From Oscillatoriales cyanobacterium Centralia_MAG_596 (GTDB taxonomy: Bacteria; Cyanobacteriota; Cyanobacteriia; Leptolyngbyales; Leptolyngbyaceae), in the NCBI GenBank assembly GCA_021323955.1, contig JAJPKC010000479.1, forward strand, positions 1-43,041: a DNA stretch of 43,041 nucleotides, read 5' to 3'. The notes under the pieces are model-generated. The model was not told where the DNA came from. It ran no database searches and worked only from the letters and a program-made list of their open reading frames with translations. Of this stretch, positions 4,421 to 37,260 are shown in pieces (position 1 is the stretch's first letter; each line of letters starts with the position of its first letter). The translations under genes and the position numbers were made by a program.

Positions 4421-5203
4421 ATGAAACCTAACGCTTCTGTACTGACTCTGGTTGGTGCCGTCACACTGGCAGCACTCACCGGAATCACATTCGCCTGTTC
4501 GCAATCTTCACCGCCATCGCCCTCGGGCGTATCGTCGAGCAATGCGTCACCCCCGGTGAGCCAGTCTCCCATCAGCGCGCCACTGGCTACGGCAACCCCC
4601 ACCCCCACCAACCCGGTCGCGCAGCCGCAGGTTACCGAGCGATCGCCCGACCAGGTTCCCGCTACAGTCAATCGCACCGTTGAATCGTGCGTGCTTCGGA
4701 TGGCGCGTGTAAACGATCCCAATCCACCGCTCAATGTGCGATCGTCACCCACAACCGAGGGGGATAATGTGGTCGGCCAGTTGAAAAACGGCACGTTCGT
4801 GACGGTGGCCACCGAGCAAAACGGTTGGCTCCAAATCAAGACACCCATGAAAGGATGGGTATCCAAACCGCAGACGGATACGGGCTGTAACGACAAAGTG
4901 GAACGGATTAACCTGAAAGATAGCAGCGCCACGGTGCAGGTGTCCGATCGCTTCATCGGCACGGGGAGCCATCGCTATCTTGTCTCTGGTAGTAAAGGTC
5001 AAACATTTACGATCACGCGCGATCGGGGGCCGTTCCCGCTCATCGTTTCGCCCGATGGCAAAATTTTGCTCGGTCACGAATCAGACGAAGCGCGGCAGAG
5101 CTGGAGCACCCAACTGGATCAAACGGGTGATTACACGCTGGAGCTAGAGTCTAACTTTAAAGGCTATAAATACTCCTTCTCGATCGAAGCGAAGGGAGAG
5201 TAA
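4421..5203 (+). CDS. SH3b-domain lipoprotein
   Basis: The 260-residue protein has a lipoprotein signal: a short basic start, a hydrophobic stretch, then ITFAC with the lipidation Cys at residue 26. A Pro/Ser/Thr-rich linker runs to about residue 85. A bacterial SH3 domain follows (about 90-155), with the typical PLNVRSSPT strand, GQLKNGTFVTV and GWLQIKTPMKGWV. The C-terminal 100 residues form a beta-rich domain (YLVSGSKGQTFTI, LDQTGDYTLEL) resembling extracellular beta-sandwich modules in other cyanobacterial SH3 lipoproteins. It is likely tethered to a membrane facing the periplasm and may bind peptidoglycan or another envelope component (inference). An AGGA sequence lies 11 bases upstream of the ATG. 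It converges on the sugar dehydrogenase gene. Confidence 0.78.
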   Translation: MKPNASVLTLVGAVTLAALTGITFACSQSSPPSPSGVSSSNASPPVSQSPISAPLATATPTPTNPVAQPQVTERSPDQVPATVNRTVESCVLRMARVNDPNPPLNVRSSPTTEGDNVVGQLKNGTFVTVATEQNGWLQIKTPMKGWVSKPQTDTGCNDKVERINLKDSSATVQVSDRFIGTGSHRYLVSGSKGQTFTITRDRGPFPLIVSPDGKILLGHESDEARQSWSTQLDQTGDYTLELESNFKGYKYSFSIEAKGE

Positions 5204-5272
5204 AGGGGAAGGATGGGGATGCGGCAGGATGGCATGGAAGCGTGACCTCCTTCTAGGCTTACCACGGGGACT

Positions 5273-6628
5273 TCAGCCCTTGTACTGGATGCGATAAATC
5301 CGACCATTGCCTTCTTCTGTCACCAGCAAGCTGCCATCACGCAGGACGAGTAACCCGACGGGACGCCCCCATGTATCTGGCCCGGTTGGATATACCAAAA
5401 ATCCGGTCAGGAAATCTTCGTAGTACCCCTGCGGTCGGCCACTGGCGTTAAACGGCACGAAGACCACTTTGTAACCAGTGCCCTGATCGCGATTCCAGGA
5501 ACCCCGAAAAGCGACAAACGCGCCATTCCGGTACGTTTCGGGGAACGTTTTGCCATCGTAAAACTGCAGCCCCAACGCCGCCGAGTGCGCCTGAAACAAG
5601 ACGTCGGGAGTCTGGGTTTGGGCGGCCAGGTCAGGGCGTACACTGTGGCCGTTGCGGACATGATGGGGATCCAGGCGATCGCGCGTCAGGTAAGCATAGG
5701 GCCAACCGTAGAATTGTCCGGCCTGAAGCCGCGTCAGGTAATCCGGCACCAGATCGTCGCCCAGGGTATCGCGCTCATTGACTGTGGTGTAGAGTGCGTG
5801 CGTTGTGGGGTGAAATGCCAGCCCGACCGGATTTCGCAGCCCTGATGCAAAGGTCTGACGATTGGAGCCATCCAGGTTCATGACCTGCACAGACGCACGG
5901 GGTAAGGGTTCTTCGTCCAGGTTGGATCGGGACCCGATCGTCACATACAGCTTTGTGCGATCGGGCGAAACAATCACATTTCTCGTCCAGTGCTGGTTGT
6001 AGCCGCCGCCCGGCAGGTCGGTAATTTTTTGGCCTGTGCCCGTGAGCTGCTGTTGTCCCGGCTGGTAAGGAAATCGCAGGACAGCGGCGGTATTGCCCAG
6101 AAAAAAAGCATCCTTGCTAAACGCCATCCCAAACGGGATATCGATCCCATTCTGCGCCTGGGCAAAGGTTTTTTGGACGTCGGCCACACCGTCGCCATTG
6201 GTGTCGCGGAGCAATTGAATGCGATTTCGGCGCGTTTCGGTCACCAGAACGTCTCCGGTGGGAGTCAACGCCAGCCAGCGCGGGCGATCGAGACCCTCTG
6301 CAAAGACATTCACGACAAACCCTGCCGGAACGTTTAGCGTTGGATGTGGCGGAATAGGAATGACGTTGGGAGATTTGGACGCACTATTGCTGGCGTAGGG
6401 CGGCGGCAGTTGGGTGGGCGTAATGTGGATCGGCTGGGGGTTGAATGGTTTTGTCTGGATGGCGTTAGCCGCAGCTATCGGGATCGCCTTTGCCTGATTT
6501 GTTTCATCTGCTTGGGGCGAACCTGCGAAAGAGGATGGCTGAGACTCTGGCGTAGCGCGGGACGCCTCGATCGCATGACAGGAACCCAGGCCCAACCCGA
6601 GCAATAGCAGAAACGACAATCGGTACAT
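5273..6628 (-). CDS. PQQ-dependent sugar dehydrogenase-like beta-propeller lipoprotein
   Basis: The 451-residue protein starts with a lipoprotein signal (LLLLGLGLGSC, Cys at 17) and a low-complexity linker to about residue 95. The rest is a glucose/sorbosone dehydrogenase-type six-bladed propeller: LDRPRWLALTPTGDVLVTE, IPFGMAFSKDAFFLGN, WTRNVIVSPDRTKLYVTIGS, FASGLRNPVGLAFHP, GQFYGWPYAYL and GAFVAFRGSWNR, ending with LLVTEEGNGRIYRI. These enzymes oxidise sugars or aldoses in the periplasm when PQQ is available. Many cyanobacteria lack PQQ synthesis, so the true cofactor and substrate are uncertain. The next gene upstream is the pil cluster, separated by a terminator, so this is a separate transcription unit. 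Confidence 0.82.
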   Translation of the reverse strand: MYRLSFLLLLGLGLGSCHAIEASRATPESQPSSFAGSPQADETNQAKAIPIAAANAIQTKPFNPQPIHITPTQLPPPYASNSASKSPNVIPIPPHPTLNVPAGFVVNVFAEGLDRPRWLALTPTGDVLVTETRRNRIQLLRDTNGDGVADVQKTFAQAQNGIDIPFGMAFSKDAFFLGNTAAVLRFPYQPGQQQLTGTGQKITDLPGGGYNQHWTRNVIVSPDRTKLYVTIGSRSNLDEEPLPRASVQVMNLDGSNRQTFASGLRNPVGLAFHPTTHALYTTVNERDTLGDDLVPDYLTRLQAGQFYGWPYAYLTRDRLDPHHVRNGHSVRPDLAAQTQTPDVLFQAHSAALGLQFYDGKTFPETYRNGAFVAFRGSWNRDQGTGYKVVFVPFNASGRPQGYYEDFLTGFLVYPTGPDTWGRPVGLLVLRDGSLLVTEEGNGRIYRIQYKG

Positions 6629-15807: not shown

Positions 15808-18800
15808 ATGGCAATTCTACACGGTAGCTGGTTTATTTGCTCTCAACCGGATGCAGCCGCTGGTCTGAGCGATCAGCGTTCTGGACTCACCGCTACCGCG
15901 CTGTCGGGTGGGTATCTCTTTATCTGGGGCGAGCTATGGCGGCGCATCACGCCGGAATCGTTACCGTTGAGCGGTCTGGATATGGCCCCCGATGGGATCG
16001 GTCAGCATCCCTTTGCCATGACATCGACGGCACTGCTGGACTTTTTGCGATCGCGGCAGCAGGCTGGCAAACTGCGGCTCTCGGAGTCAATGTTGAACCC
16101 AGCGCAATCAACGCCTCCCGCAGCGAAAGCAACACGTGGAGCATCACGGTCGGGGGCCGCCATTGCGGACGCCACGCCGTCAGCGGCAGCGACAGGCCGT
16201 TGGCAAACTCAGATCTTAGCGGTGCCGTCCTATGCTGCGGCTGGTGAGCTTGATTTGCCTGTGGGCACCATTGTGCCGCAGCATTCAGCCGCTGCGGCAG
16301 GCGATCGTGACCTGTTCCTGCATCCGTGGCAGGTGGAGGGCCTCTGTTTGGATCCAGTCGCGGCGATGGCGTTCTTAAACTCGTTGCCGCTTGGAGCCGT
16401 CACGGCGGATGATTCCTTTCTCGGCAGTGACCTGCGGTTCTGGTCTCATGTGGCGCGCTGGAGCCTTGACCTGTTGGCGCGATCGAAATTTCTACCAGGG
16501 CTGGAAAGTGTTGATTCGATGACGGTCGCTCGCTGGCAGCCGTTGCTGGACAGTGCGGTGGATCAGGTGCGGCTCAAGCATTTTGCGGATCGGATGCCCA
16601 TTGTCTGTCGGCTGTATCAGCAGGAAGCAGATACCCTGCCGACGGCTTTACCCGCCGACACGCCCCATCCGTCCGCTGGCACTCCCCTCGCGATCGCGCT
16701 CCCAACCTCACCCCAAGGGCTGCTTCACGCCTTTCTCCGCGGCACGCTCGATGCCCAAATTCGCCTGCTGGCGTCTCAGCTATCCTGGGCGACAACTACC
16801 GAAAAACCGGCTTCCGGTGCGGCCAAAGCGGTCGCGGTTACATCCCCGGTTCGGGAGTGGTTACACGCGCTCGCGCAACCGATCGCGGGCATCAATGCTG
16901 GTGGGCTAGAGTCGCTGACAGCGGCACTCGCCACCTGGACGGCCCCGCTACAATACCAGGGCATACAGCATCTCTTTCGCACCTGTCTTTACCTGCATCC
17001 TCCCCAACCGGGGCAAAGCCAGTGGCAGCTGGAGTATTTTTTGCAGGCGGCTGATGACAGCGAGTTTCTGGTCAGTGCGCCAACCATTTGGGGGAATCCG
17101 GTGGAGCGGTTGCAGTATCGGGGACGCACCATCGATCGCCCGCAAGAAACGCTATTGATGGGGTTAGGGCTGGCTTCGCGTCTGTATGCGCCGATCGAAC
17201 CCAGCTTGCAGGAACCGCGACCCCAATTTTGCCCGCTGACGGCCCAGCAAGCCTATGACTTTTTGAAGACTGTGACCTGGCGCTTACAGGACAGCGGGTT
17301 GGGCGTTGTGCTGCCGCCGAGTCTGTCCAATCAGGGTGGTTGGGCCAGCCGACTGGGGCTAAAAATTCAGGCGCAGTCGGCCAAACTCAACAAAGGTCAG
17401 GTACGACTGGGACTGCAAAGCCTGCTCAACTTTCGGTGGGAACTGTCTATTGGTGGACAGAGCCTATCGAAAGCGGAGTTCGATCGCCTGGTAGCTCTCA
17501 ACGCGCCGTTGGTTGAGATCAATGGCGAGTGGGTAGAACTGCGCCCTCAAGACATCCGTGCAGCCCAAACGTTCTTTGCCAGCCGCAAAGACCAAACGGC
17601 TCTATCGCTTGAAGATGCCCTACGCATCAGCACAGGCGACACGCAGACGATCGAAAAGCTGCCGGTCGTCAGTTTTGAAGCCTCTGGCCCTCTGCAAGAA
17701 CTGATTACCACGCTCAGCGGCAATCGCCAAATTGAAGCACTGCCCACACCCAGGCGTTTTCGTGGCGAACTGCGTCCTTACCAGTCGCGTGGGGTGGGGT
17801 GGCTGGCGTTCCTGGAGCAGTGGGGACTGGGGGCTTGTCTGGCAGACGATATGGGGCTGGGAAAGACCATTCAGCTCATCGCGTTTTTGCTGTACTTGAA
17901 AGAGCAAAAGACGCTGGAACATCCGACGCTGCTGGTCTGTCCGACCTCGGTGTTGGGTAACTGGGAGCGCGAAGTCAAGAAGTTTGGGCCAGACCTGGTC
18001 ACCTTTCTCTATCACGGAGACAAACGGCCGCAAGGGAAAGCCTTTGTCAAAGCGGCTCAGGGTAAAGACCTCATCATTACGAGCTATGCCCTGATCTATC
18101 GTGACCTCAAAGACCTGCAAAGCATTTCCTGGCAGGGGATCGTACTGGATGAAGCACAGAACATTAAAAACCCGGATGCCAAACAGTCACAGGCCGTACG
18201 CCAGTTAGATGCCCAGTTTCGCATTGCGCTAACGGGAACTCCGGTAGAAAATCGACTCTCGGAACTCTGGTCGATTCTGGATTTTCTCAACCCTGGCTAT
18301 CTGGGGCCCAAGAACTTTTTCCAGCGACGATTTGCCACCCCGATCGAGCGCTATGGAGATACGGCATCGCTGCAAACCCTGCGATCGCTGGTGCAACCCT
18401 TTCTGCTGCGCCGTCTCAAGACCGATCGCGATATCATCCAGGATTTGCCCGACAAGCAAGAGATGACGGTGTTCTGTGGACTGTCTTCCGAGCAGGCGTC
18501 CCTTTACCAGCACACGGTCGATCAATCGCTGAAGGAGATCGAAGCGGCAGAGGGCATCCAGCGTAAGGGCATCATTCTCGCGCTGCTCGTTAAGCTAAAG
18601 CAAATCTGCAATCATCCGGCCTTGTATCTGAAGGAGTCAGACGGGGGGGCGGGAACAAGGGGACGAGCGGGCAGGGAGACAACCTTGTTAACCGCTCAAA
18701 GCGCCTTCCAATCCCGATCGGGTAAACTGCAACGGCTGGAGGAAATGCTAGAAGAAGCGGTGGCAGAAGGCGATCGCGCCCTCATCTTCACCCAGTTTGC

Positions 18801-19266
18801 CGAGTGGGGCAAATTGCTCAAGGCCCATTTAGAGCAACAGTTGGGACGCGAGACCCTGTTCCTCTATGGCAGTACGCCGAAAAAGCAGCGCGAGGAGATG
18901 GTCGATCGCTTTCAGCACGACCCGCAAGGCCCCCGCATCTTCATCCTGTCGCTCAAAGCGGGTGGTGTCGGGCTAAACCTGACCCGCGCGAACCACGTGT
19001 TTCACTTCGATCGCTGGTGGAACCCGGCAGTGGAAAATCAGGCCACCGATCGCGTTTTCCGTATCGGGCAGACGCGCAATGTCCAGGTGCATAAATTTGT
19101 CTGCAATGGCACCCTCGAAGAAAAGGTCCACGAACTCATCGAGAGCAAGAAAGCGCTGGCAGAAAACGTCATTGGTGCTGGTGAAAACTGGCTCACCGAG
19201 CTGGATACGGATGCCTTGCGCGACCTGCTTCTGCTCGATCGCAGCGCCATTATTGGTGAAGAGTAG
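15808..19266 (+). CDS. SNF2-family DEAD/DEAH helicase with N-terminal SNF2-associated domain
   Basis: The 1152-residue protein is a SWI2/SNF2 (HepA/RapA-like) ATPase. It starts with MAILHGSWF, the opening seen in cyanobacterial members, and has about 500 residues of SNF2-associated (DUF3670-like) sequence. Motif I DDMGLGKT is at 680-687 and the DEAQ box at 781-784. The C-terminal helicase half has ALIFTQFAEW, ILSLKAGGVGLNLTRA and the motif VI region QATDRVFRIGQ near 1078-1088. Such proteins translocate on duplex DNA and remodel nucleoprotein. The bacterial target is unknown. A short charged Gly/Arg-rich insert near 950 (GGAGTRGRAGRE) looks like lineage-specific low complexity. Confidence 0.93.
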   Translation: MAILHGSWFICSQPDAAAGLSDQRSGLTATALSGGYLFIWGELWRRITPESLPLSGLDMAPDGIGQHPFAMTSTALLDFLRSRQQAGKLRLSESMLNPAQSTPPAAKATRGASRSGAAIADATPSAAATGRWQTQILAVPSYAAAGELDLPVGTIVPQHSAAAAGDRDLFLHPWQVEGLCLDPVAAMAFLNSLPLGAVTADDSFLGSDLRFWSHVARWSLDLLARSKFLPGLESVDSMTVARWQPLLDSAVDQVRLKHFADRMPIVCRLYQQEADTLPTALPADTPHPSAGTPLAIALPTSPQGLLHAFLRGTLDAQIRLLASQLSWATTTEKPASGAAKAVAVTSPVREWLHALAQPIAGINAGGLESLTAALATWTAPLQYQGIQHLFRTCLYLHPPQPGQSQWQLEYFLQAADDSEFLVSAPTIWGNPVERLQYRGRTIDRPQETLLMGLGLASRLYAPIEPSLQEPRPQFCPLTAQQAYDFLKTVTWRLQDSGLGVVLPPSLSNQGGWASRLGLKIQAQSAKLNKGQVRLGLQSLLNFRWELSIGGQSLSKAEFDRLVALNAPLVEINGEWVELRPQDIRAAQTFFASRKDQTALSLEDALRISTGDTQTIEKLPVVSFEASGPLQELITTLSGNRQIEALPTPRRFRGELRPYQSRGVGWLAFLEQWGLGACLADDMGLGKTIQLIAFLLYLKEQKTLEHPTLLVCPTSVLGNWEREVKKFGPDLVTFLYHGDKRPQGKAFVKAAQGKDLIITSYALIYRDLKDLQSISWQGIVLDEAQNIKNPDAKQSQAVRQLDAQFRIALTGTPVENRLSELWSILDFLNPGYLGPKNFFQRRFATPIERYGDTASLQTLRSLVQPFLLRRLKTDRDIIQDLPDKQEMTVFCGLSSEQASLYQHTVDQSLKEIEAAEGIQRKGIILALLVKLKQICNHPALYLKESDGGAGTRGRAGRETTLLTAQSAFQSRSGKLQRLEEMLEEAVAEGDRALIFTQFAEWGKLLKAHLEQQLGRETLFLYGSTPKKQREEMVDRFQHDPQGPRIFILSLKAGGVGLNLTRANHVFHFDRWWNPAVENQATDRVFRIGQTRNVQVHKFVCNGTLEEKVHELIESKKALAENVIGAGENWLTELDTDALRDLLLLDRSAIIGEE

Positions 19267-23708: not shown

Positions 23709-24858
23709 CGCTGTACGATCTGTTTGGACGCTTCGAAAAATCACTGGTTACTGCCTAATGCTTTAGTTATGCAGTCATGATAGAAACTTATAGAATAAGT
23801 TGAGTTGCACAATTCCAAATCTCTAAAGAATGAAAGTTCCATTTACCCAACCTTATTCAGACATTGGTGTTGCCATTGTCAACAAGATTTTTTCTAGGGC
23901 ATCATGGATCTTCAGAGAACAACCTAAACACGATCTTGGCATAGATGCTCATATTGAGATAGTTGAATTTGGGGTATCAACAGGACAACTGTTTGGAGTT
24001 CAGATTAAGACAGGGCACTTCAACAGAAGTAAGAATGGTGATTTAGTGCTGTACATTGACCGGGAGCATCGCTCTTACTGGTTGAACTATTCCATACCAG
24101 TATTACTGACTCTCTGTGAGGTGGAAACCGAGAAGGTTTATTGGCAAATCATCAATCTTGCCACCATTAAGTCAACTGGTAGAGGAGGCTATAAGATCAA
24201 TGTGCCATGTTCTAATGAACTTACTCATATCAAAGTTAAAGAAATACAAGAAAACCTATTTGATAAAGATTTAGTTCTAGCAATAACGGCTTTACGTAAA
24301 TGGTCAAGTCATCGAATTCTTCCAGAACCGGGAGAAATACACTATTTTGTGCAAAGGCTTCAGCTTGGCAGAGTTCCTAACGAGCTTTTAGCCTTTATTT
24401 TGTGCTCAGCATATATTAAAAGAGAAGAAATTGAAGATTGGAGTAATTACTCAAAAAAAAGTTTTTCAATGCGTCATTTCTTTCGACATTTGTGTGGACA
24501 TTCATCACAGTTACTTGATGAAGACCAGGAATCTGTCGGAATAAGCGATTTAGGTAGTGGTATTTATCCTGATACGCTAGAAAATTTTATTGCTTGTCAG
24601 TTGGTCAATATAAATAAAGATGGTTTGCAGATTTATGTTGTAGGTATTGATGAACTGGAAGTTATTTATAAACCAGTCTTGCCTGAGAATTTAGGTGCAT
24701 CATGGAAAGTGTTTGATTCTTGTATTAAATTCCTTAGTCAACGAAGGCTAGCAGATTTTTATGATGCAGTTGACGCAGTATAACAATTCTGGCGCAGCGG
24801 ATTGACCTATAACGCTTGTGTTGAATGCAAAGGTATTGGCAACCGCTGACCAGACCCG
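23703..24858 (+). mobile_element. Integron cassette B (DUF4365 cargo)
   Basis: The 1156-bp unit opens with TTATAC. Its own R'' core (24778-24784, GTATAAC) is the exact reverse complement of G+TTATAC, although in the array these bases lie at opposite ends. The final core reads GTTCCGC, so the bases after G are presumably the original chromosomal or attI side. Confidence 0.83.
23830..24783 (+). CDS. DUF4365 domain protein (putative PD-(D/E)XK-type nuclease fold)
   Basis: The 317-residue protein has an N-terminal DUF4365-type domain (about 5-145). Its motif chain is HDLGIDAHIE then GQLFGVQIKTG, i.e. Asp35-x-Gly-x-Asp39, Glu43 and Gln58-x-Lys60. That order resembles the active site of PD-(D/E)XK nucleases (family knowledge; activity not shown). 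The C-terminal 170 residues are a helical region with no recognised domain, including FSMRHFFRHLCGHSS. Codon use is clearly more AT-rich than in neighbouring genes, and there are no HIP1 sites, so it is recently acquired. The TAA stop lies in the R'' core of attC B. DUF4365 proteins are often found near defence genes, so a defence role is plausible but inferred. Confidence 0.82.
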   Translation: MKVPFTQPYSDIGVAIVNKIFSRASWIFREQPKHDLGIDAHIEIVEFGVSTGQLFGVQIKTGHFNRSKNGDLVLYIDREHRSYWLNYSIPVLLTLCEVETEKVYWQIINLATIKSTGRGGYKINVPCSNELTHIKVKEIQENLFDKDLVLAITALRKWSSHRILPEPGEIHYFVQRLQLGRVPNELLAFILCSAYIKREEIEDWSNYSKKSFSMRHFFRHLCGHSSQLLDEDQESVGISDLGSGIYPDTLENFIACQLVNINKDGLQIYVVGIDELEVIYKPVLPENLGASWKVFDSCIKFLSQRRLADFYDAVDAV

Positions 24859-24998: not shown

Positions 24999-26078
24999 AT
25001 GGTACAAGCACCTCCACGTTTAGACGCTATCCATAGCGTTGAAAGAGCTTTTGAGCCGAGTGTCGATTTACATTTTCGGTTGCCTGATCCAGAGGATGAG
25101 CAAATTCCTGAAATGGAGTTTCAGCAGCAGGTGGAGCAGGCGTGGCAGGTCTGCGATCGCTTTGACCTGCAAACCGATATCTGGCGTGGACGGATCTTGC
25201 GAGCTGTGCGCGATCGCGAAAAGCGTCATGGCGATGGACGCGGTACGGGCTTTCTCAACTGGCTGAAAGACCGGGAGATCAGCAAAAGTCAGGCGTATTC
25301 GATGATTGAACTGGCGAACAGCGCCGATACCCTGCTCGAAGGCGGCTACCTGGAACCCGAAGACGTCAACCAGTTTAGCAAACGCGCCTTTGTGGAAACG
25401 GCACATGCGGCACCAGAAGTGCAGCAAATGGTCAGCGATGCCGCGCATCGGGGCGATCGCATCACCCGTCGCGAAGTGCGTCAGCTTTCGGATGATTGGA
25501 CAGCGATGACGTCCGACCTGTTGCCCACTGAGGTCAAGCAAAAGGCGGCTGACCACACCATTCCGGCAAAATACCTCGCGCCACTGGTGAAGGAGATGCA
25601 GAAGCTACCGGAGAGCCACCAGGTCTCCATTCGCGAGGCCGTTGCCGAAACGCCGGATGTCGATACGCTGAAACAGGCGACCTCAGAGGCCCGCTACCTG
25701 TGGCGCTATCTGGAAGCTGCTGCCAACGTCCAGGCACTCAACAACGAATCGCTGGATCTAGAGCAGGCGCTCGAAGAAGCGCTCCGCATCGGCTGTCTTA
25801 GCTCCACAGCCGACCTGGTCAATCAAGCGGCCCAACTGGAACAGACCGTCACGAAACTCTACCTCACGTGGAAGCGGCTGAATGCGCTGTCGGAACGCCT
25901 TTATCTGGATAGTGGGGCCAGTACCCCTCACCTGCGATCGCTCCTCAGCTGCATTGCACCTCTGTCCGGTGACATTATTGAGACGTCGTTAACGGGGCGG
26001 GGCGATCGCACGGTGCGGCTTCAGGTCCTCTCGAATGAGACGATCGACCTGGCCACGGTTGATCCTTCGGTGGCTTAG
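24999..26078 (+). CDS. Conserved hypothetical protein, possibly DNA-binding (DUF3102-like N-terminal region)
   Basis: The 359-residue protein has no secure family. Residues 45-110 (QVCDRFDLQTDIWRGRILRA, GFLNWLKDREISKSQAYSMI) resemble the helical DUF3102/phage-type module, in which GxFxxWL is followed by a helix-turn-helix-like SKSQAY segment. DNA binding is therefore possible. The remainder is almost all helical and acidic, with no signal peptide or membrane segment. GC content and HIP1 sites are like the host chromosome, which places it outside the cassette array. A CATAAT element lies about 25 bases upstream of the ATG. I infer a cytoplasmic, vertically inherited cyanobacterial protein of unknown role. 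Confidence 0.65.
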   Translation: MVQAPPRLDAIHSVERAFEPSVDLHFRLPDPEDEQIPEMEFQQQVEQAWQVCDRFDLQTDIWRGRILRAVRDREKRHGDGRGTGFLNWLKDREISKSQAYSMIELANSADTLLEGGYLEPEDVNQFSKRAFVETAHAAPEVQQMVSDAAHRGDRITRREVRQLSDDWTAMTSDLLPTEVKQKAADHTIPAKYLAPLVKEMQKLPESHQVSIREAVAETPDVDTLKQATSEARYLWRYLEAAANVQALNNESLDLEQALEEALRIGCLSSTADLVNQAAQLEQTVTKLYLTWKRLNALSERLYLDSGASTPHLRSLLSCIAPLSGDIIETSLTGRGDRTVRLQVLSNETIDLATVDPSVA

Positions 26079-28486: not shown

Positions 28487-28795
28487 TCATCGATCGCCCT
28501 GACCCAGGGCTTCGGGAACCCTAACGCCTGGTTCCGAGCCCTGTCCCGTAAGCTGCTGCCAAATGTGGTGTAGGGCGTGATTGACGAGTAGCTTTTCAGC
28601 AATGGAACAGTCGAGTTTTTCCATCAATGGAGCGATGTGGGCGGCCGTTACCATTGGAATGCCGTAGCTTGTGAGAACGGTCTGGTACGACTGATTGCGG
28701 TACGCCTTCACGGGGTCGTGTCCCTGAGCAAGCTGGTTCAGGTATTCGGTATCGGACATGCCGAGATCGACAATAAGCGGCTGATGATTTGGCAT
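28487..28795 (-). CDS. Small conserved-looking protein, function unknown
   Basis: Starting at ATG 28795 gives 102 residues beginning MPNHQPLIVDLGMSDTEYL. The frame stays open further upstream but would then overlap the helicase stop, and the upstream part looks non-coding (Cys/Arg-rich). The middle is predicted helical (YLNQLAQGHDPVKAYRNQSY, MEKLDCSIAEKLLVNHALHHIWQQL). No signal or membrane segment. It sits directly downstream of the Lhr-like helicase gene on the same strand, 150 bases away, so co-transcription is possible. No family recognised. Confidence 0.55.
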   Translation of the reverse strand: MPNHQPLIVDLGMSDTEYLNQLAQGHDPVKAYRNQSYQTVLTSYGIPMVTAAHIAPLMEKLDCSIAEKLLVNHALHHIWQQLTGQGSEPGVRVPEALGQGDR

Positions 28796-28947
28796 AGCGG
28801 TAGGTGTAGTAGCAGCGCGATCGCACAGCGCATTGGATTTCCAGGTCAGAATGCCCCGGAATGCGATCCAACGCTCGAAATCAGACGTGATCGCACACTC
28901 TCTACATCTATCCAAGGATAGAACGCTCCGTAAATCTGCTGCGCTGA

Positions 28948-31137
28948 TTACCAATCTTTCACAATGTCACCGAGTGCTGCAAGATCGAGATAGTCTACCG
29001 TAAAGGCGCGTCGCAGCAGATCGGGCGGTATAAATTCATCGTACTTTTGCAGCTTAGGGACTTCATCGTCGCCCAGCAACGCCTCTGCCTCGATCGCGCG
29101 GTTGGTGATCGACTTGATCTCGTGGTATAAACTCGTCGTTTTACATTTCCCCATATTGACGACCAGGAAATAGGGCGATCGTCCCGACACCCCCTTGATC
29201 TTGAGCGCTTCCCGGCAGTGGAGGCGAAGCAATCGCTCTAACGTCCGTACCGCGATCGTGCCAGCCCAGGGGAGAATGCAGCAGGCGTTTCCTTCCAGGG
29301 GTAAGAGGTGACTACTCGCAATGCCTTCTTTCTGCGCGAGTTTGCGGGCGGCGGCCAGTCGTGCCTTGGCACCGGGTTGCAGGTAGGCATAGTCCATGTC
29401 TTCCAGAAGCGCCTGCCGCATCCGTTGCAATATACGCGTGTGAATGTTGCCGCTGCTGCCCCGCCAGGAGACAGTGGATGCCCCAATCGCGGACTTTACC
29501 TGAATCACCTTGCGCGAGTGGTTAACTTCGACCACCTCCCAGGTGCGTCCGGCTAGCGACAGGCGATCGCCCACGGCAGGTTGAACCACCACGCTGCCCA
29601 ACTCCACCCCATCGCTCCAGACAGCGTAATCTTCGGTGTCGGGAAAGATCGCGTAGAACTTAAAGCTTTTGACAATGCGCTCTGCTGTCATGCCGATTAT
29701 GAGGCCGTTTTCGGGCGTGCGCTGGATGTGGTCAAGCTCGATAAGGTGACGCAGCACTTGGCGAAAGTCGTCCTGGGAAATGGCTCGAAATGGCGGCAGC
29801 GGCAGCACGTGCTGTGCCAGCGCTGCCGGAGACAGTTCGCCCAGGGCCACCAGCGTGCTCAAGGTCTGCTGATAGAGCAGGCTAAAGGGATACTGCAGTG
29901 GGGCAATCGGCTCGATCCACTTTTCCTCCAGGTAAAGCTGGATGACCGCAATGCACTGGAGCAACTGCCACGGAATGAGTTCGGGTAGAGATTCGCCGCC
30001 TGTGGGTTTGTCTTCGGCACACACGAACCGCATATCGGCGGGACTGCCGCGCCGCCCCGATCGCCCCAACCGCTGCAAGAAACTGGACACTGATGGGGGA
30101 GCCTCAAGCTGGATCACGCGATCGAGCTGTCCCAGGTCAATCCCCATTTCAAACGTAACCGTGGCAGCGGTGACAGTCGGACTGGTGCGATCGCGCATGG
30201 CCGTTTCAGCGGCTTCGCGGAGGGGAGCCGCAATGCTGCCGTGGTGGACATGATAGACATCGGGAAAGCCCTTTGCTTCAGCAATTTGTCGCAGAGAGGC
30301 AATGACCGTCTCCGTTTCACTGCGCCCGTTGGCAAAGATCAGACATTTACGGGACTGGCTCTGGTCAAACAAGTAGCGTTGATACGCGCTGAACGTGGAG
30401 TCGCGGGTGTCTCCTTTTGCCCGCACGATCAAGCTTGGCGTGTAGAAATGCTCCAGCGCCAGTTGAATGGTGCGTGGTTTGGCGGGGATCTGGGGCGTAA
30501 TGACGGGTCGATTTGTCCCCGATCGCAGCCAGTCTTCGGCCATAGTGTAATCCCCCAGCGTGGCAGACAGTCCAATCCGACGGGGATGGTTGTCTGTCAG
30601 GCGGGCCAACCGCGAGAGTTGGCAGAGAATTTGGGCACCGCGATCGGAGCCAATAAAGGCATGAATCTCATCAATGATGACAAAACGCAAATCCCCAAAC
30701 AGACGCTTCAGCTCTGTACTCTGGTTAATCAGCAAGCTTTCCAATGATTCGGGTGTAATTTGCAGAATGCCCTTGGGCCGCTTGAGCAAATTCTTTTTGC
30801 GGCTCTGCACCACGTCGCCATGCCATGCCCAGACTGGGATCTCTGCTTGTTTGAGGAGGTCTGTGAGGCGATCGAACTGGTCATTGATCAAGGCTTTGAT
30901 CGGGCCAATGTAGATCGCTCCCACGGTGGTCGGTGGATCGTCGTGCAGCCGCGTCAGTACGGGGAGAAATGCCGCTTCGGTCTTGCCCGATGCCGTTCCG
31001 GCGGCAATCAGCAGGTGAGCATCCGTGTCAAACAAGACCCGACAGGCTTCAACTTGTACCGGGCGCAGGTCTGTCCAACCCTGGCTGTAGATAAATTCTT
31101 GAATGAATGGCGCAAGCCGATAGTAAGGAGAAGTCAT
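28948..31137 (-). CDS. Lhr-like superfamily 2 DEAD/DEAH helicase (BrxHI-like)
   Basis: The 729-residue protein has the Lhr-type helicase core. Seen are the Q-motif region RPVQVEACRVLF, Walker A GTASGKTEAAF, IGPIKALINDQFDRL, TPESLESLL, a DEIH box in VIIDEIHAFIGSDRG, SATLGD, and the helicase C motif FLQRLGRSGRRG. The C-terminal 250 residues contain a winged-helix/Lhr-core-like part. At about 730 residues it is much shorter than full Lhr and resembles the helicases paired with DUF2791-type ATPases in BREX type 2 (brxHI) and TerB-linked clusters (recalled knowledge). Its likely partner is the ATPase gene 750 bases upstream, with only a small plus-strand gene between. Confidence 0.85.
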   Translation of the reverse strand: MTSPYYRLAPFIQEFIYSQGWTDLRPVQVEACRVLFDTDAHLLIAAGTASGKTEAAFLPVLTRLHDDPPTTVGAIYIGPIKALINDQFDRLTDLLKQAEIPVWAWHGDVVQSRKKNLLKRPKGILQITPESLESLLINQSTELKRLFGDLRFVIIDEIHAFIGSDRGAQILCQLSRLARLTDNHPRRIGLSATLGDYTMAEDWLRSGTNRPVITPQIPAKPRTIQLALEHFYTPSLIVRAKGDTRDSTFSAYQRYLFDQSQSRKCLIFANGRSETETVIASLRQIAEAKGFPDVYHVHHGSIAAPLREAAETAMRDRTSPTVTAATVTFEMGIDLGQLDRVIQLEAPPSVSSFLQRLGRSGRRGSPADMRFVCAEDKPTGGESLPELIPWQLLQCIAVIQLYLEEKWIEPIAPLQYPFSLLYQQTLSTLVALGELSPAALAQHVLPLPPFRAISQDDFRQVLRHLIELDHIQRTPENGLIIGMTAERIVKSFKFYAIFPDTEDYAVWSDGVELGSVVVQPAVGDRLSLAGRTWEVVEVNHSRKVIQVKSAIGASTVSWRGSSGNIHTRILQRMRQALLEDMDYAYLQPGAKARLAAARKLAQKEGIASSHLLPLEGNACCILPWAGTIAVRTLERLLRLHCREALKIKGVSGRSPYFLVVNMGKCKTTSLYHEIKSITNRAIEAEALLGDDEVPKLQKYDEFIPPDLLRRAFTVDYLDLAALGDIVKDW

Positions 31138-31528
31138 AGTCCATCCAATCGATCGCGGGACATTACCGCTGGAAATGCACGCTGGTTGAAGGGTTGAGTC
31201 TGGCGAAAACGATCGTTTGGGTCAGAAGGCCGAGAACACAGCCCATCGAGAACACAGCCCATCAACCCAATAAATAGCTACAGCATATAGTCTCGGTTGG
31301 CGTTCTGGCTTGCCGCTGTACACAGTAGATGACGATGGCGATCGCAGCCGTTCTGAGAATCAATTGAAGTCGCTGTATCCAGCTTTACAAGCAATATTAA
31401 ATCTTTCAGTTGTTATAAAGATTGAGTTTAATGGGCGATATACTCTTTGGCAAAAGTGAATTCCGCTCAAACATTGCATGTTTGTCTGTTGAGCAATCGC
31501 TAATAGAGTCTTAGGAGAATTGCAGATT
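31138..31528. other. 391-base intergenic region upstream of GlsB-like gene and Lhr-like helicase
   Basis: The two flanking genes diverge, so both promoters lie here. It contains a perfect 16-bp tandem repeat, listed separately, and an AT-rich stretch (31370-31440) with a TATAAA element around 31418, close to the plus-strand gene. No coding frame is called. Confidence 0.45.
31231..31262. repeat. Perfect 16-bp tandem direct repeat
   Basis: CGAGAACACAGCCCAT occurs twice without a gap (31231-31246 and 31247-31262), about 95 bases upstream of the helicase start. It may be a slippage duplication or a doubled protein site. Confidence 0.8.
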
Positions 31529-31798
31529 ATGAATCTTATTGCGTGGATTATTTTAGGATTGGTGGCTGGCGCGATCGCAAAAGCAATCTATCCCGGCACT
31601 CAGGGTGGTGGGATCCTGGCAACGCTGGTGTTGGGTGTTGTCGGCGCATTTATTGGCGGTACGCTGTTTACGTTGCTGACAACCGGGACACTGGCGTTAG
31701 CGGCTCCTGGCTTCAGTATTGGCGGCATACTTGTGGCGATTGTTGGCGCAATTATTGCGATCTATCTGTGGAGTTTAATTAGCCGTCGGGCTGCTTAA
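31529..31798 (+). CDS. GlsB/YeaQ/YmgE-type small stress-response membrane protein
   Basis: The 89-residue protein, from ATG 31529 with AGGAG 11 bases upstream, is almost entirely hydrophobic. It has the transglycosylase-associated-protein pattern: MNLIAWIILGLVAGAIAKAIYPG, GGILATLVLGVVGAFIGG, IGGILVAIVGAIIAIYLW. Three membrane helices are expected. The family is induced by stress in many bacteria, and its molecular function is not established. It lies on the opposite strand between the BrxD-like ATPase and the Lhr-like helicase, interrupting what would otherwise be a two-gene unit. Confidence 0.88.
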   Translation: MNLIAWIILGLVAGAIAKAIYPGTQGGGILATLVLGVVGAFIGGTLFTLLTTGTLALAAPGFSIGGILVAIVGAIIAIYLWSLISRRAA

Positions 31799-31890
31799 AA
31801 CCCTGAACGGTTGTTAATCGAAGCGCAACATTTGATCATCGGTCTTGAACACGTTTCAGAGATTGAGGGTAGGTGTTGCGCGTTTGCATT

Positions 31891-33219
31891 TTATACCGTA
31901 AATTCGGCGAATTCATTGCTCTCGTCGATCGCGTTTTGCGATTGCGATCGTGACGGTTGGAACGTCGAGCTGTGAATAATTTGGCTAAGCGTCATCTTCG
32001 GATGCTGCTGGAGGATGCTGAGCACGCTCATGAAATCACGCACCACTTCACCAGGCGTGAGTAAGGTTTCGGCACCAACGCGGCTGGCGATCGCGCTCAA
32101 AAAATCTTGCAGCTCGCGCTCTGTTAAGCGTGGCTTGGTGTCGTGGTGGGTGGCATGGATCTCCGATAACCGCTGCAGCAGTCGCAGAATGTCTTCCTGC
32201 GTCAGGGGTTCCAGCCGGATCGCCGGCCCCGAGACATCTTCCACCCCTCCTTTCACAAACCGACTTTTGGCCGTGCGGCGCTGCCAGGCCGGGTCACTGT
32301 ACAGCCCTCGACGGGGGTCTTCCAGCAGTTGCGGGGTGCCGCCGATAATGGTGCCCAGATGCCCAACGCGGCCCTGCATCGAGTCATTAAACATCGCCAG
32401 CAGCTTATCGTAGTTGTTCTGACGCGACACAGCTGTAGTGATTTTATACAGATGAATGGCCTCATCTAAAAAAATCAGCAGCCCCTTGTAGCCAATGTCC
32501 GCGACGAACCGGGCAAAGAGCTTGATGTAGTCGTACCAGGTCTCATCATCGATAATGACCCGCACTCCCAGTGCCGCCCTTGCCTCTGTCTTCGTGGCAA
32601 ACTCACCCCGCAGCCAGCGGAGAGCCGCCGCTTTCTTGCTGTCGTCATCCGTGCGGTAGCCAGACCAGTAAGCGATGATCACGTTGGCAAACTCAAAGCC
32701 ATTCACCAGATCGGCCACGTCCTTGACCACTTCGCGGATCTTCGCTTCAACCTGGCCATCGAAGCCATCGTCGTTTGGTTTTTTTCCGGTTTCCTGAGCG
32801 ACCTGCGTTTGAATGCCAGCAATCCAGCGTTCCAGGATGATGGTCAGTGCGCCGCCATCGGGACGACTCTTGGTTGCCAGGTTATGCATTAGCTCCCGGT
32901 AGGTGGCAAGACTGGCCCCGTTGCTGCCAGCCAACCGCCGCTCTGGGGTGAGGTCTGCGTCCGCAACGACAAAGCCCTGCTCCATTGCATGGTTGCGGAG
33001 CAGTTGCAGCGTGAAGCTTTTGCCCGCGCCGTACCGTCCAACGACAAAGCGAAAGCTGGCTCCACCCCCAGCAATGGCCTCCAGGTCTTGCAGCAGTGCC
33101 TGCACTTCCCGTTCGCGCCCCACGGCGATATGTTCCAGCCCCACACGGGGCACTACGCCAGCGCTGAGCGCATTGATCAGCGCGGTCGAGACTCGTTTGG
33201 AAAGTTTTTGAGAAGACAT
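31891..33219 (-). CDS. BrxD-like (DUF2791) P-loop ATPase
   Basis: The 442-residue protein matches the BREX-system ATP-binding (DUF2791) family. It opens with ALINALSAGVVPRVGLEHIAVGRERE, has Walker A GRYGAGKSFTLQLL and a Walker B-type LLIFLDEAIHLYKI. Also visible are the sensor-like GTIIGGTPQLLEDPRRGLYSD and the arginine-rich WQRRTAKSRF. The C-terminal part contains a regulated helical lid (LLTPGEVVRDFMSVLSILQQ). This ATPase family is known from BREX type 2 and TerB-linked DNA-processing clusters, usually with an Lhr-like helicase. Here the helicase lies downstream on the same strand. No PglZ, PglX methylase or other BREX core gene is in the window. Confidence 0.85.
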   Translation of the reverse strand: MSSQKLSKRVSTALINALSAGVVPRVGLEHIAVGREREVQALLQDLEAIAGGGASFRFVVGRYGAGKSFTLQLLRNHAMEQGFVVADADLTPERRLAGSNGASLATYRELMHNLATKSRPDGGALTIILERWIAGIQTQVAQETGKKPNDDGFDGQVEAKIREVVKDVADLVNGFEFANVIIAYWSGYRTDDDSKKAAALRWLRGEFATKTEARAALGVRVIIDDETWYDYIKLFARFVADIGYKGLLIFLDEAIHLYKITTAVSRQNNYDKLLAMFNDSMQGRVGHLGTIIGGTPQLLEDPRRGLYSDPAWQRRTAKSRFVKGGVEDVSGPAIRLEPLTQEDILRLLQRLSEIHATHHDTKPRLTERELQDFLSAIASRVGAETLLTPGEVVRDFMSVLSILQQHPKMTLSQIIHSSTFQPSRSQSQNAIDESNEFAEFTV

Positions 33220-36006: not shown

Positions 36007-37260
36007 ATGCTTGATCTCATAAAGCTGGCTCAACAAATGCAGGGTATCAGCCAACAGCTTACGCTGGAAGCAACGGCGACTAGGCAGCGGCTCGATCGCG
36101 CGCAAACGCTCCTGGAGCAAGCCTATCAGCATCAGGAAACCCTGGTAGATCAGCAGCAGACCTGGCGCGATCGCCTCAGCTTTACAGCAGCCGAACCCGT
36201 TGAGCCGCTCAATCGTCGGATCGCGATTCCTGTCCCGCCCTTGGCGCACACAGTGATTGCTACCGATGGTTCCCAGATTGCGCCCAGCCACCACGAAATT
36301 GCCTACTGTTATTTAATTAACGTCGGGCGCATTGTGCTCCACTACGGGCAGAACCGCCTGCCATTGCTCGACAGCCTTCCCGAAGTGTTCTACCGTCCTG
36401 AAGATCTCTATGTCTCGCGCCAGTGGGGCATCCGCACGGAGGAATGGATGGGCTATCGGCGGACGGTGTCGGAGGCGATCGTGCTGGCGGAGTTAGGGGG
36501 GCAGGTAAAGGATCAAGGCGAAAGGATTAAGGCGAAATCAGAGTCTTCTGTTGATCCTGCATCCTTCATTCCTCATCCTGCGCTGGCGATGGTCGATGGC
36601 TCTCTCATCTACTGGTTCCTCGATTCGTTGCCGGGGGATGCGCGCGATCGCATTCTGCCCCCGATTCTCGAAGCCTGGGAACGTCTCCGTCTGGCGGGAA
36701 TCCCTCTGGTTGGCTACGTCAGTGCGTCGCGGAGTGGGGAAGCGCTCAACTTCCTGCGGCTGCAAGCCTGCCCGTACGATACGCCGGACTGTGCCACGCA
36801 TTGTGCTGGCCTGGGCGATCGCGAGGGGTTCCCGCTGGCCCATGCACCCTGTCAGGTGTTGGAGCCTCTCAAAGATGCGGCGCTCTGGTCGATCGCGCTA
36901 CAGCCGGGACAGCGTAGCCCCCTCTGGCGCAGTTCGGCGCGGATTCTGGATCTCTACGGTGATCACCACATCTACTTCTGCTATGTCCATGTGGGCACCG
37001 AAATTGCCCGCGTTGAGTTTCCTGCCTGGGTTGCAGAGGACGTGAACTGGTTGGATACGGCCCTCAGCCTGACCCTGGCGCAGGTGCAGAAGGGCTACGG
37101 TTATCCGGTGGCGCTGGCAGAGGCGCATAACCAGGCCGTTGTGCGGGGGGGCGATCGCAGCCGCTTTTTTGCCCTGTTGGAGCAGCAAATGATCCGGGCG
37201 GGGCTCCGCAATGTCGGCACCTCTTACAAAGAGGCCAGGAAGCGGGGCAGCATCGCGTAG
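36007..37260 (+). CDS. NurA-domain nuclease
   Basis: The 417-residue protein has a NurA nuclease fold. A coiled-coil N-terminus (residues 1-65) precedes VIATDGSQIAPSHH, with the metal-binding Asp87. LAMVDGSLIYWFLD provides the second catalytic Asp197. A C-terminal region contains YVHVGTEIARVEFPAWV and LAEAHNQAVVRGGDR. NurA proteins are single- and double-strand DNA exonucleases that act with the HerA helicase in archaea. Cyanobacterial homologues are uncharacterised. Between residues 168 and 192 lies a low-complexity stretch (VKDQGERIKAKSES, SFIPHP) encoded by a heptanucleotide-repeat element inserted in frame. No herA is adjacent. Confidence 0.85.
   Translation: MLDLIKLAQQMQGISQQLTLEATATRQRLDRAQTLLEQAYQHQETLVDQQQTWRDRLSFTAAEPVEPLNRRIAIPVPPLAHTVIATDGSQIAPSHHEIAYCYLINVGRIVLHYGQNRLPLLDSLPEVFYRPEDLYVSRQWGIRTEEWMGYRRTVSEAIVLAELGGQVKDQGERIKAKSESSVDPASFIPHPALAMVDGSLIYWFLDSLPGDARDRILPPILEAWERLRLAGIPLVGYVSASRSGEALNFLRLQACPYDTPDCATHCAGLGDREGFPLAHAPCQVLEPLKDAALWSIALQPGQRSPLWRSSARILDLYGDHHIYFCYVHVGTEIARVEFPAWVAEDVNWLDTALSLTLAQVQKGYGYPVALAEAHNQAVVRGGDRSRFFALLEQQMIRAGLRNVGTSYKEARKRGSIA
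36507..36580 (+). repeat. Heptanucleotide-repeat element inserted in frame in nurA-like gene
   Basis: A purine-rich half (repeated AAAGGAT/AAGGCGA-like units, 36507-36538) is followed by a pyrimidine-rich half (CATCCTT, CATTCCT, CATCCTG, 36552-36580). The two halves are roughly inverted. It resembles the short tandem heptamers of cyanobacterial genomes and adds about 25 codons to the gene. Confidence 0.7.

Follow-up and report, generated by a model that had tools for sequence, protein, structure and literature searches.

To which system do an ATPase and a helicase belong that lie close together on a 43,041-nucleotide contig (JAJPKC010000479.1, hereafter the window, meaning the whole stretch analysed) of Oscillatoriales cyanobacterium Centralia_MAG_596? 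A SngB-like ATPase of the BrxC/BrxD family (PF10923, which we take to be the current name of DUF2791) is encoded at 31891-33219 and a SngC-like helicase of the Lhr-like, DEIH-box kind at 28948-31137, both on the minus strand, with the helicase 753 bases downstream of the ATPase. A previous sequence-only reading noted that such genes belong to bacteriophage exclusion (BREX) type 2 or TerB-linked systems, saw none of the usual partners, and suggested a stand-alone pair that may be a minimal module or may work with partners elsewhere, such as a NurA-like nuclease. We consider it rather probable that the two genes supply the motors of a three-component system which is related to the anti-phage system Shango and has been passed on vertically; the place of SngA would be taken by the septal protein SepT, whose gene is on another contig and which would tether the motors.

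Both open reading frames (ORFs) are intact and lie where they had been placed, on the same strand with a small opposite-strand gene between them. The ATPase (442 residues) matches PF10923 BrxC_BrxD with 551.8 bits, and the helicase (729 residues) comprises the Pfam domains DEAD, Helicase_C and WH_Lhr. Conservation was followed in alignments of 24 ATPase and 15 helicase sequences, hand-picked from the loci of relatives. The ATPase retains GRYGAGKS and LDE: in the Walker A motif GRYGAGKSF (residues 61-69; 33013-33039, minus strand) G61, Y63, G64, G66 and K67 are invariant, as are D252 and E253 of the Walker B motif, which a hydrophobic strand precedes (32461-32481, minus strand). The helicase motifs TASGKT, DEIH, SAT and QRLGRSGRR are intact, and D156, E157 and H159 of the DEIH motif II (residues 156-159; 30661-30672, minus strand) are invariant. 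A sequence search of PDB with the helicase matched Lhr and other helicases, and the same search with the ATPase gave no match. Compared with three members of the genus, the ratio of nonsynonymous to synonymous substitution rates (dN/dS) of the pair is 0.02-0.06 (five of the six comparisons were computable, with synonymous sites near saturation); judged by these alignments, purifying selection on the motor pair is strong.

The distribution of the two genes was surveyed in 388 genomes of the class, at E values up to 1e-150 for the helicase, 1e-70 for the ATPase and 0.01 for the TerB-C protein discussed below; canonical and SepT-type systems are counted together in this tally, whose Fisher p-values take no account of phylogeny. 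Counting the two motors only, both are present in 79 genomes, the ATPase without the helicase in 8 and the helicase without the ATPase in 3. The proposal that the two genes belong together is thereby borne out and, since they co-occur, the objection that relatives might carry them independently fails. Because the families are found together so often and dN/dS is so low, the pairing is far beyond chance.

Shango is a three-gene anti-phage system (SngA-SngB-SngC) described from E. coli and P. aeruginosa, the latter of which it protects against several phages; it combines an ATPase and a helicase with a TerB-like protein (PMC10250203). The PADLOC models assign the window ATPase 593.4 bits for SngB (PDLC03959) versus 188 for BrxD, and the helicase 815.8 bits for SngC (PDLC03960) versus 438.4 for BrxHI/II, margins of 405 and 377 bits, respectively. 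The BrxD equivalog model of BREX, NF033438, gives the ATPase 189.2 bits, below its cut-off of 350. As the Sng scores are far higher and the BrxD model is not reached, the pair is of Shango type and not BREX. A profile scan of the draft source genome returned one PF10923 match in total and no BrxC; a BREX remnant was rejected on the hidden Markov model (HMM) scores together with this single PF10923 gene. Thus, of the two affiliations first offered for the pair, the TerB-linked one stands and the BREX one falls.

The SngA model has one match in the source genome, a draft that is 91.7% complete and comprises 704 contigs, with both motors on contig C491. The match lies on contig C237 and covers only the last 118 positions of the model (409-526 of 528). 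The matching protein, a SepT-type TerB-C protein of 467 residues (L002, 1471-2874, minus strand), has a TerB_C domain (41 bits), a coiled coil and hydrophobic N-terminal segments at residues 6-24 and 30-48, and is 27.5% identical to its Nostoc homologue over 472 alignment columns (E 7e-49). The absence of a methylase, PglZ or TerB protein noted before holds for the 20 window ORFs scanned with Pfam, the only place where PglZ was checked; with a TerB-C partner encoded in trans, whose homologue adjoins the ATPase in most named relatives, the terms stand-alone and minimal no longer apply. A profile search detected no TerB_N in the draft, and the idea of a complete SngA at some other place in the genome was rejected on that ground. 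Among 144 genomes of relatives searched, TerB_N occurs in 8, all with larger SngA-like proteins, some of them fragmented.

Within the window's genus, the TerB-C gene and the motor pair are on different contigs in 7/7 genomes. Four genomes whose contigs are very long (G011, G030, G033 and G036) carry the three genes far apart on a single contig. SepT-like TerB-C proteins were present in all 42 sampled genomes of a family near Leptolyngbya, four of them below the Pfam cut-off. An aroB-like gene adjoins the SepT gene of the source genome; it was dismissed as a shared neighbour, being near SepT in 1 of 40 loci, its own, with short flanks. We also note that G065, G079 and G092 encode a second TerB-C protein, an open frame of 918-938 residues near the ATPase, with a short SepT-type protein elsewhere.

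In other relatives the genes are neighbours. The 80 named loci compared are the best 80 of 123 found with the ATPase; their ATPases are 62-88% identical, and flanks extend up to 8 kb, less at contig ends. Their genomes bear names of cyanobacteria, such as Leptolyngbya, Stenomitos, Nostoc, Anabaena and Fischerella, with the exception of L086, from a bin named Tatlockia. A homologue of the TerB-C protein of the source genome lies directly upstream of the ATPase, on the same strand and at a gap of -17 to 462 nucleotides, in 61 of the 80. The helicase is found downstream of the ATPase within the stretch in 32 loci, and all three genes in 25; the 48 loci that show no helicase include some in which the contig ends. 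In L081, L086 and L097 the genes form abutting or overlapping A-B-C operons. Some of the 19 loci with no TerB-C gene upstream end 1-3 kb from the ATPase, and others, including those of the window's genus, truly lack it there. Upstream of the TerB-C gene, a DUF815 P-loop ATPase is present in 54 loci. This AAA ATPase, which in L132 for instance (5132-6487, plus strand) immediately precedes the SepT-type gene, is a possible fourth member of the block and would correspond by gene order to all2461 of Anabaena.

These loci also bear on the proposal that the pair is a minimal two-gene module derived from BREX, perhaps working with the nearby NurA nuclease. The motors do belong to the superfamilies of BrxD and BrxHI, and a NurA-like gene (36007-37260, plus strand; 162 bits in Pfam) is real and lies 2.8 kb from the ATPase. 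Nevertheless, no NurA homologue is near the ATPase in any of the 80 loci, within flanks of at most 8 kb, so that NurA was rejected as a partner; the SngB and SngC models lead by the margins given above; BrxD/BrxHI-like genes of relatives score just 105-154 bits on SngB and 450-461 on SngC; and a TerB-C partner was found. We regard a BREX-derived module as very improbable. Adjacent BrxD-like and BrxHI-like genes occur in G002 (contig C30), G112, G119, G137 and G141; they score 126-154 bits against SngB and 450-461 against SngC and perhaps represent true BREX-type loci.

The TerB-C partner resembles a protein that has been studied in another context. SepT (All2460 of Anabaena PCC 7120) is a septal protein that has two membrane segments near its N-terminus (residues 12-50) as well as coiled coils and a TerB-C domain (PMC10653889), and is 426 residues long (PMC12421839). 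According to the published account, SepT is located at the cell periphery, midcell and the intercellular septa, a localization lost when the membrane segments are removed, and its partners ZipN, SepF, FtsW, RodA, MreB and SepJ include components of the divisome and elongasome (PMC10653889). Its neighbours all2461 and all2459, in the order all2461, all2460, all2459, are conserved and both encode P-loop NTPases; All2459 co-precipitates with SepT-GFP (PMC10653889). The same succession of P-loop NTPase, SepT-type protein and P-loop NTPase recurs in the loci examined here, with DUF815 upstream in 54/80 and SngB downstream in 61/80. Since the published gene order is thus reproduced, All2459 should be a SngB-type ATPase. 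The source genome itself encodes a protein combining membrane segments, coiled coil and TerB-C, by which it groups with the SepT-type genomes. In anatomy, length and gene neighbours, the TerB-C partner matches SepT. PMC10653889 does not appear to relate the SepT neighbours to Shango or BREX, its main text does not contain the word helicase, and none of the papers listed in searches of the openly licensed literature in PubMed Central joins SepT to Shango.

Structure prediction provided a glimpse of how such a partner may be built. SepT-type alignments of 31 and 30 sequences, hand-picked from the loci, were used. An AlphaFold2 model from the 31 homologues, with the Nostoc protein of L094 as the first sequence, places helices at residues 3-28 and 31-284, a disordered linker at 286-323 and a compact helical domain at the C-terminus (mean predicted local distance difference test (pLDDT) score 82.5, predicted TM-score (pTM) 0.28). 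In this model the SngA counterpart is predicted to have membrane segments at its N-terminus and then a rod about 250 residues long, followed by a linker and TerB-C. The TerB-C domain modelled alone reaches pLDDT 89.3 and pTM 0.81. Its profile matches the end of canonical SngA with an hhalign probability of 97.4 (E 1.1e-11). The best PDB matches of the domain are winged-helix domains (Z 8.2), a level at which the resemblance may mean hardly more than that the arrangement is a common one; Foldseek gave a best E of 0.013 and none below 0.001, and the full-length model has winged-helix matches as well, also weak. A DNA-binding role was considered for the domain and set aside: the fold is winged-helix-like, but TerB-C is strongly acidic, with a median net charge of -10 and a negative value in 30/30 sequences. 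This charge makes it likelier that the domain docks proteins than that it binds DNA. The ATPase offers a suitable element in its conserved C-terminal tail AEFTV (31894-31908, minus strand), a likely docking peptide. The antepenultimate residue is phenylalanine and the final one aliphatic in 110/110 distinct ATPases of the cyanobacterial type and in 12/12 canonical ones, and the tail is a candidate for docking, perhaps on TerB-C.

Phylogenetic analysis separates these motors from canonical Shango, here represented by other cyanobacteria, Paenibacillus, Azospirillum, Sulfitobacter and a haloarchaeon. The ATPases of SepT-type genomes split from the canonical ones with a support of 0.964 (45 vs 12 sequences; median identity across the split 41%), and the helicases with 0.942 (44 vs 10; 33%); G015c, a fragment, was left out of the trees and G010c out of the helicase tree. 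In the 43 of 50 rpoB genomes that had rpoB together with all three genes, pairwise distances correlate with those of rpoB at 0.91 for TerB-C, 0.89 for the ATPase and 0.91 for the helicase, and 17, 14 and 15 well-supported splits, respectively, are shared with the 22 of rpoB. With rpoB removed, TerB-C and helicase (r 0.56) and ATPase and helicase (r 0.40) are still correlated. We read the separate clades and the congruence with rpoB as the mark of a vertically inherited Shango relative.

One could instead suppose an ordinary Shango with split genes that acts on phage alone, its septal location being incidental. SngB, SngC and TerB-C are indeed homologous, and the canonical system blocks phages in P. 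aeruginosa (PMC10250203). Against this, the source genome has no detected TerB_N, the trees follow rpoB unlike those of a mobile defence cassette, and the scanned window ORFs are mostly housekeeping genes (pilus, PNPase, invertase) rather than a defence island. Within the same family, G010, G013 and G015 hold an extra cassette of canonical type beside their SepT-type genes (L004, L016, L033, L034 and L036), with some frames split or truncated. A search of 50,697 phage records yielded no ATPase relative, and viral contigs gave six SngB relatives with identities of 39-43%, which is the canonical range; a SepT-type system on phages or viral contigs was therefore rejected. Moreover, the sepT mutants described in PMC10653889 show cell-wall phenotypes with no phage present. 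An ordinary split Shango appears unlikely.

Several observations weigh against a Shango relative tethered by SepT. The published phenotype of SepT loss concerns cell size, the growth of peptidoglycan and the septal nanopores rather than DNA, and the proteins named in the main text of PMC10653889 as co-precipitating with SepT do not include the helicase. The orthology of All2459 with the window ATPase is inferred from gene order. Two membrane segments exceed the threshold in only 41 of 52 SepT-type proteins, and the acidity of TerB-C belongs here as well. Once rpoB is removed, the distances of SepT-type TerB-C and ATPase show no correlation (r 0.06, p 0.27). TerB-C also persists alone in 15 of the 103 genomes that have it, and on an rpoB tree of 69 SepT-type genomes 14 are devoid of both motors, corresponding to seven losses (or five changes under Fitch parsimony); G022 has the helicase without the ATPase. 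This loss pattern indicates that the motors tend to disappear as a pair and that TerB-C can stay; its persistence alone, like the reported wall phenotype, indicates that SepT has work that does not need the motors.

Such observations would suit a pair engaged in cytoplasmic DNA repair or recombination, with the link to SepT reflecting no more than shared ancestry or regulation: SepT-type proteins occur without the pair, the gene is on another contig throughout the window's genus, and no residual SepT-ATPase correlation is seen. The class-wide tally nonetheless points the other way. The helicase is present in 82, the ATPase in 87 and TerB-C in 103 of the 388 genomes, and the TerB-C protein accompanies 81 of the 82 helicases. 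All three genes occur in 78 genomes, TerB-C with the ATPase in 7, TerB-C with the helicase in 3, ATPase with helicase in 1, the ATPase alone in 1 (a fragment), the helicase alone in none and no gene in 283; six of the eight genomes with ATPase and no helicase are at most 83% complete. The adjacency of ATPase and TerB-C in the named loci and the co-precipitation of All2459 with SepT-GFP (PMC10653889) likewise oppose a purely cytoplasmic function, which we hold to be quite improbable.

In the mechanism that we favour, the membrane segments and rod of SepT would keep the ATPase at membrane and septum by way of a contact between TerB-C and the ATPase tail, and the ATPase would load or drive the helicase on DNA located there. 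This DNA might be cleared, guarded or repaired, invading phage DNA being one possible substrate, and exclusion of phages or plasmids is a further possible purpose. The tethering of the motors by SepT is well supported; their action on DNA would follow from their protein families. We know of no phage or DNA phenotype. The association with SepT suggests a defence-type DNA machine located at the intercellular walls of filamentous cyanobacteria. More tentatively, a Shango-type engine may have been domesticated in these organisms, its TerB sensor arm having become SepT, with the motors patrolling the division site and septa and stopping the trapping, cutting or cell-to-cell passage of DNA. If so, a defence system would be one root of a multicellularity trait.

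The relationship joins two lines of research, that on anti-phage Shango and that on a septal protein of multicellular cyanobacteria. SepT gains a likely set of enzymatic partners, with All2459 named as the probable Shango-type ATPase, and the testable question arises of whether relatives of defence systems are at work in bacterial division and cell-cell contact. Rules for calling systems that demand neighbouring genes would overlook split systems of this kind.

Some other genes of the window are of note. The gene between the motors (31520-31798, plus strand) encodes a small Transgly_assoc membrane protein (PF04226). It is found between the motors in five of the six closest two-motor loci (L059-L062 and L066) and is absent in L058, where the ATPase and helicase are 121 bp apart; since it comes and goes among the closest relatives, it was rejected as part of the system. 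A small ORF on the minus strand (28487-28954) shares 7 bases with the end of the helicase gene and has no match in Pfam, PADLOC or NCBIfam; in L059 and L061, stretches of 67-72% identity to it lie downstream of the helicase. A DUF4365 protein (23830-24783, plus strand) resembles the N-terminal part of an Argonaute-associated nuclease model of PADLOC (62.7 bits), and a nearby ORF (24999-26078) has no Pfam match. A large SNF2 helicase with DUF3670 (15808-19266, plus strand) scores up to 452 bits on the DpdE/ZorD models of PADLOC, which may be only a superfamily resemblance.

Comparison with known systems places the pair as follows. With BREX the motors share superfamily and domain layout (BrxD and BrxHI/BrxHII); they differ in their much weaker HMM scores and in the single PF10923 gene of the source genome. 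With canonical Shango they share the SngB-type ATPase and SngC-type helicase, a third protein with a homologous TerB-C domain and, in many relatives, the A-B-C order. In contrast to canonical Shango, the protein in the place of SngA bears membrane segments at its N-terminus and a long rod, the incomplete draft shows no TerB_N followed by TerB-C, the ATPase and helicase form separate clades, and the genes are vertically inherited and dispersed (motors on C491, TerB-C on C237) rather than set side by side in one cassette, an adjacency seen in many relatives. As these two defining features, the SngA architecture and the single cassette, were looked for and are not seen, the system is related to Shango and is not a canonical member. 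From the SepT locus of Anabaena it differs in that the SepT of the window's genus is about 27% identical and lies on another contig; it shares with that locus the two N-terminal membrane segments, the coiled coils, TerB-C, a length of about 426 residues and, in most of the named loci, the flanking P-loop NTPases.

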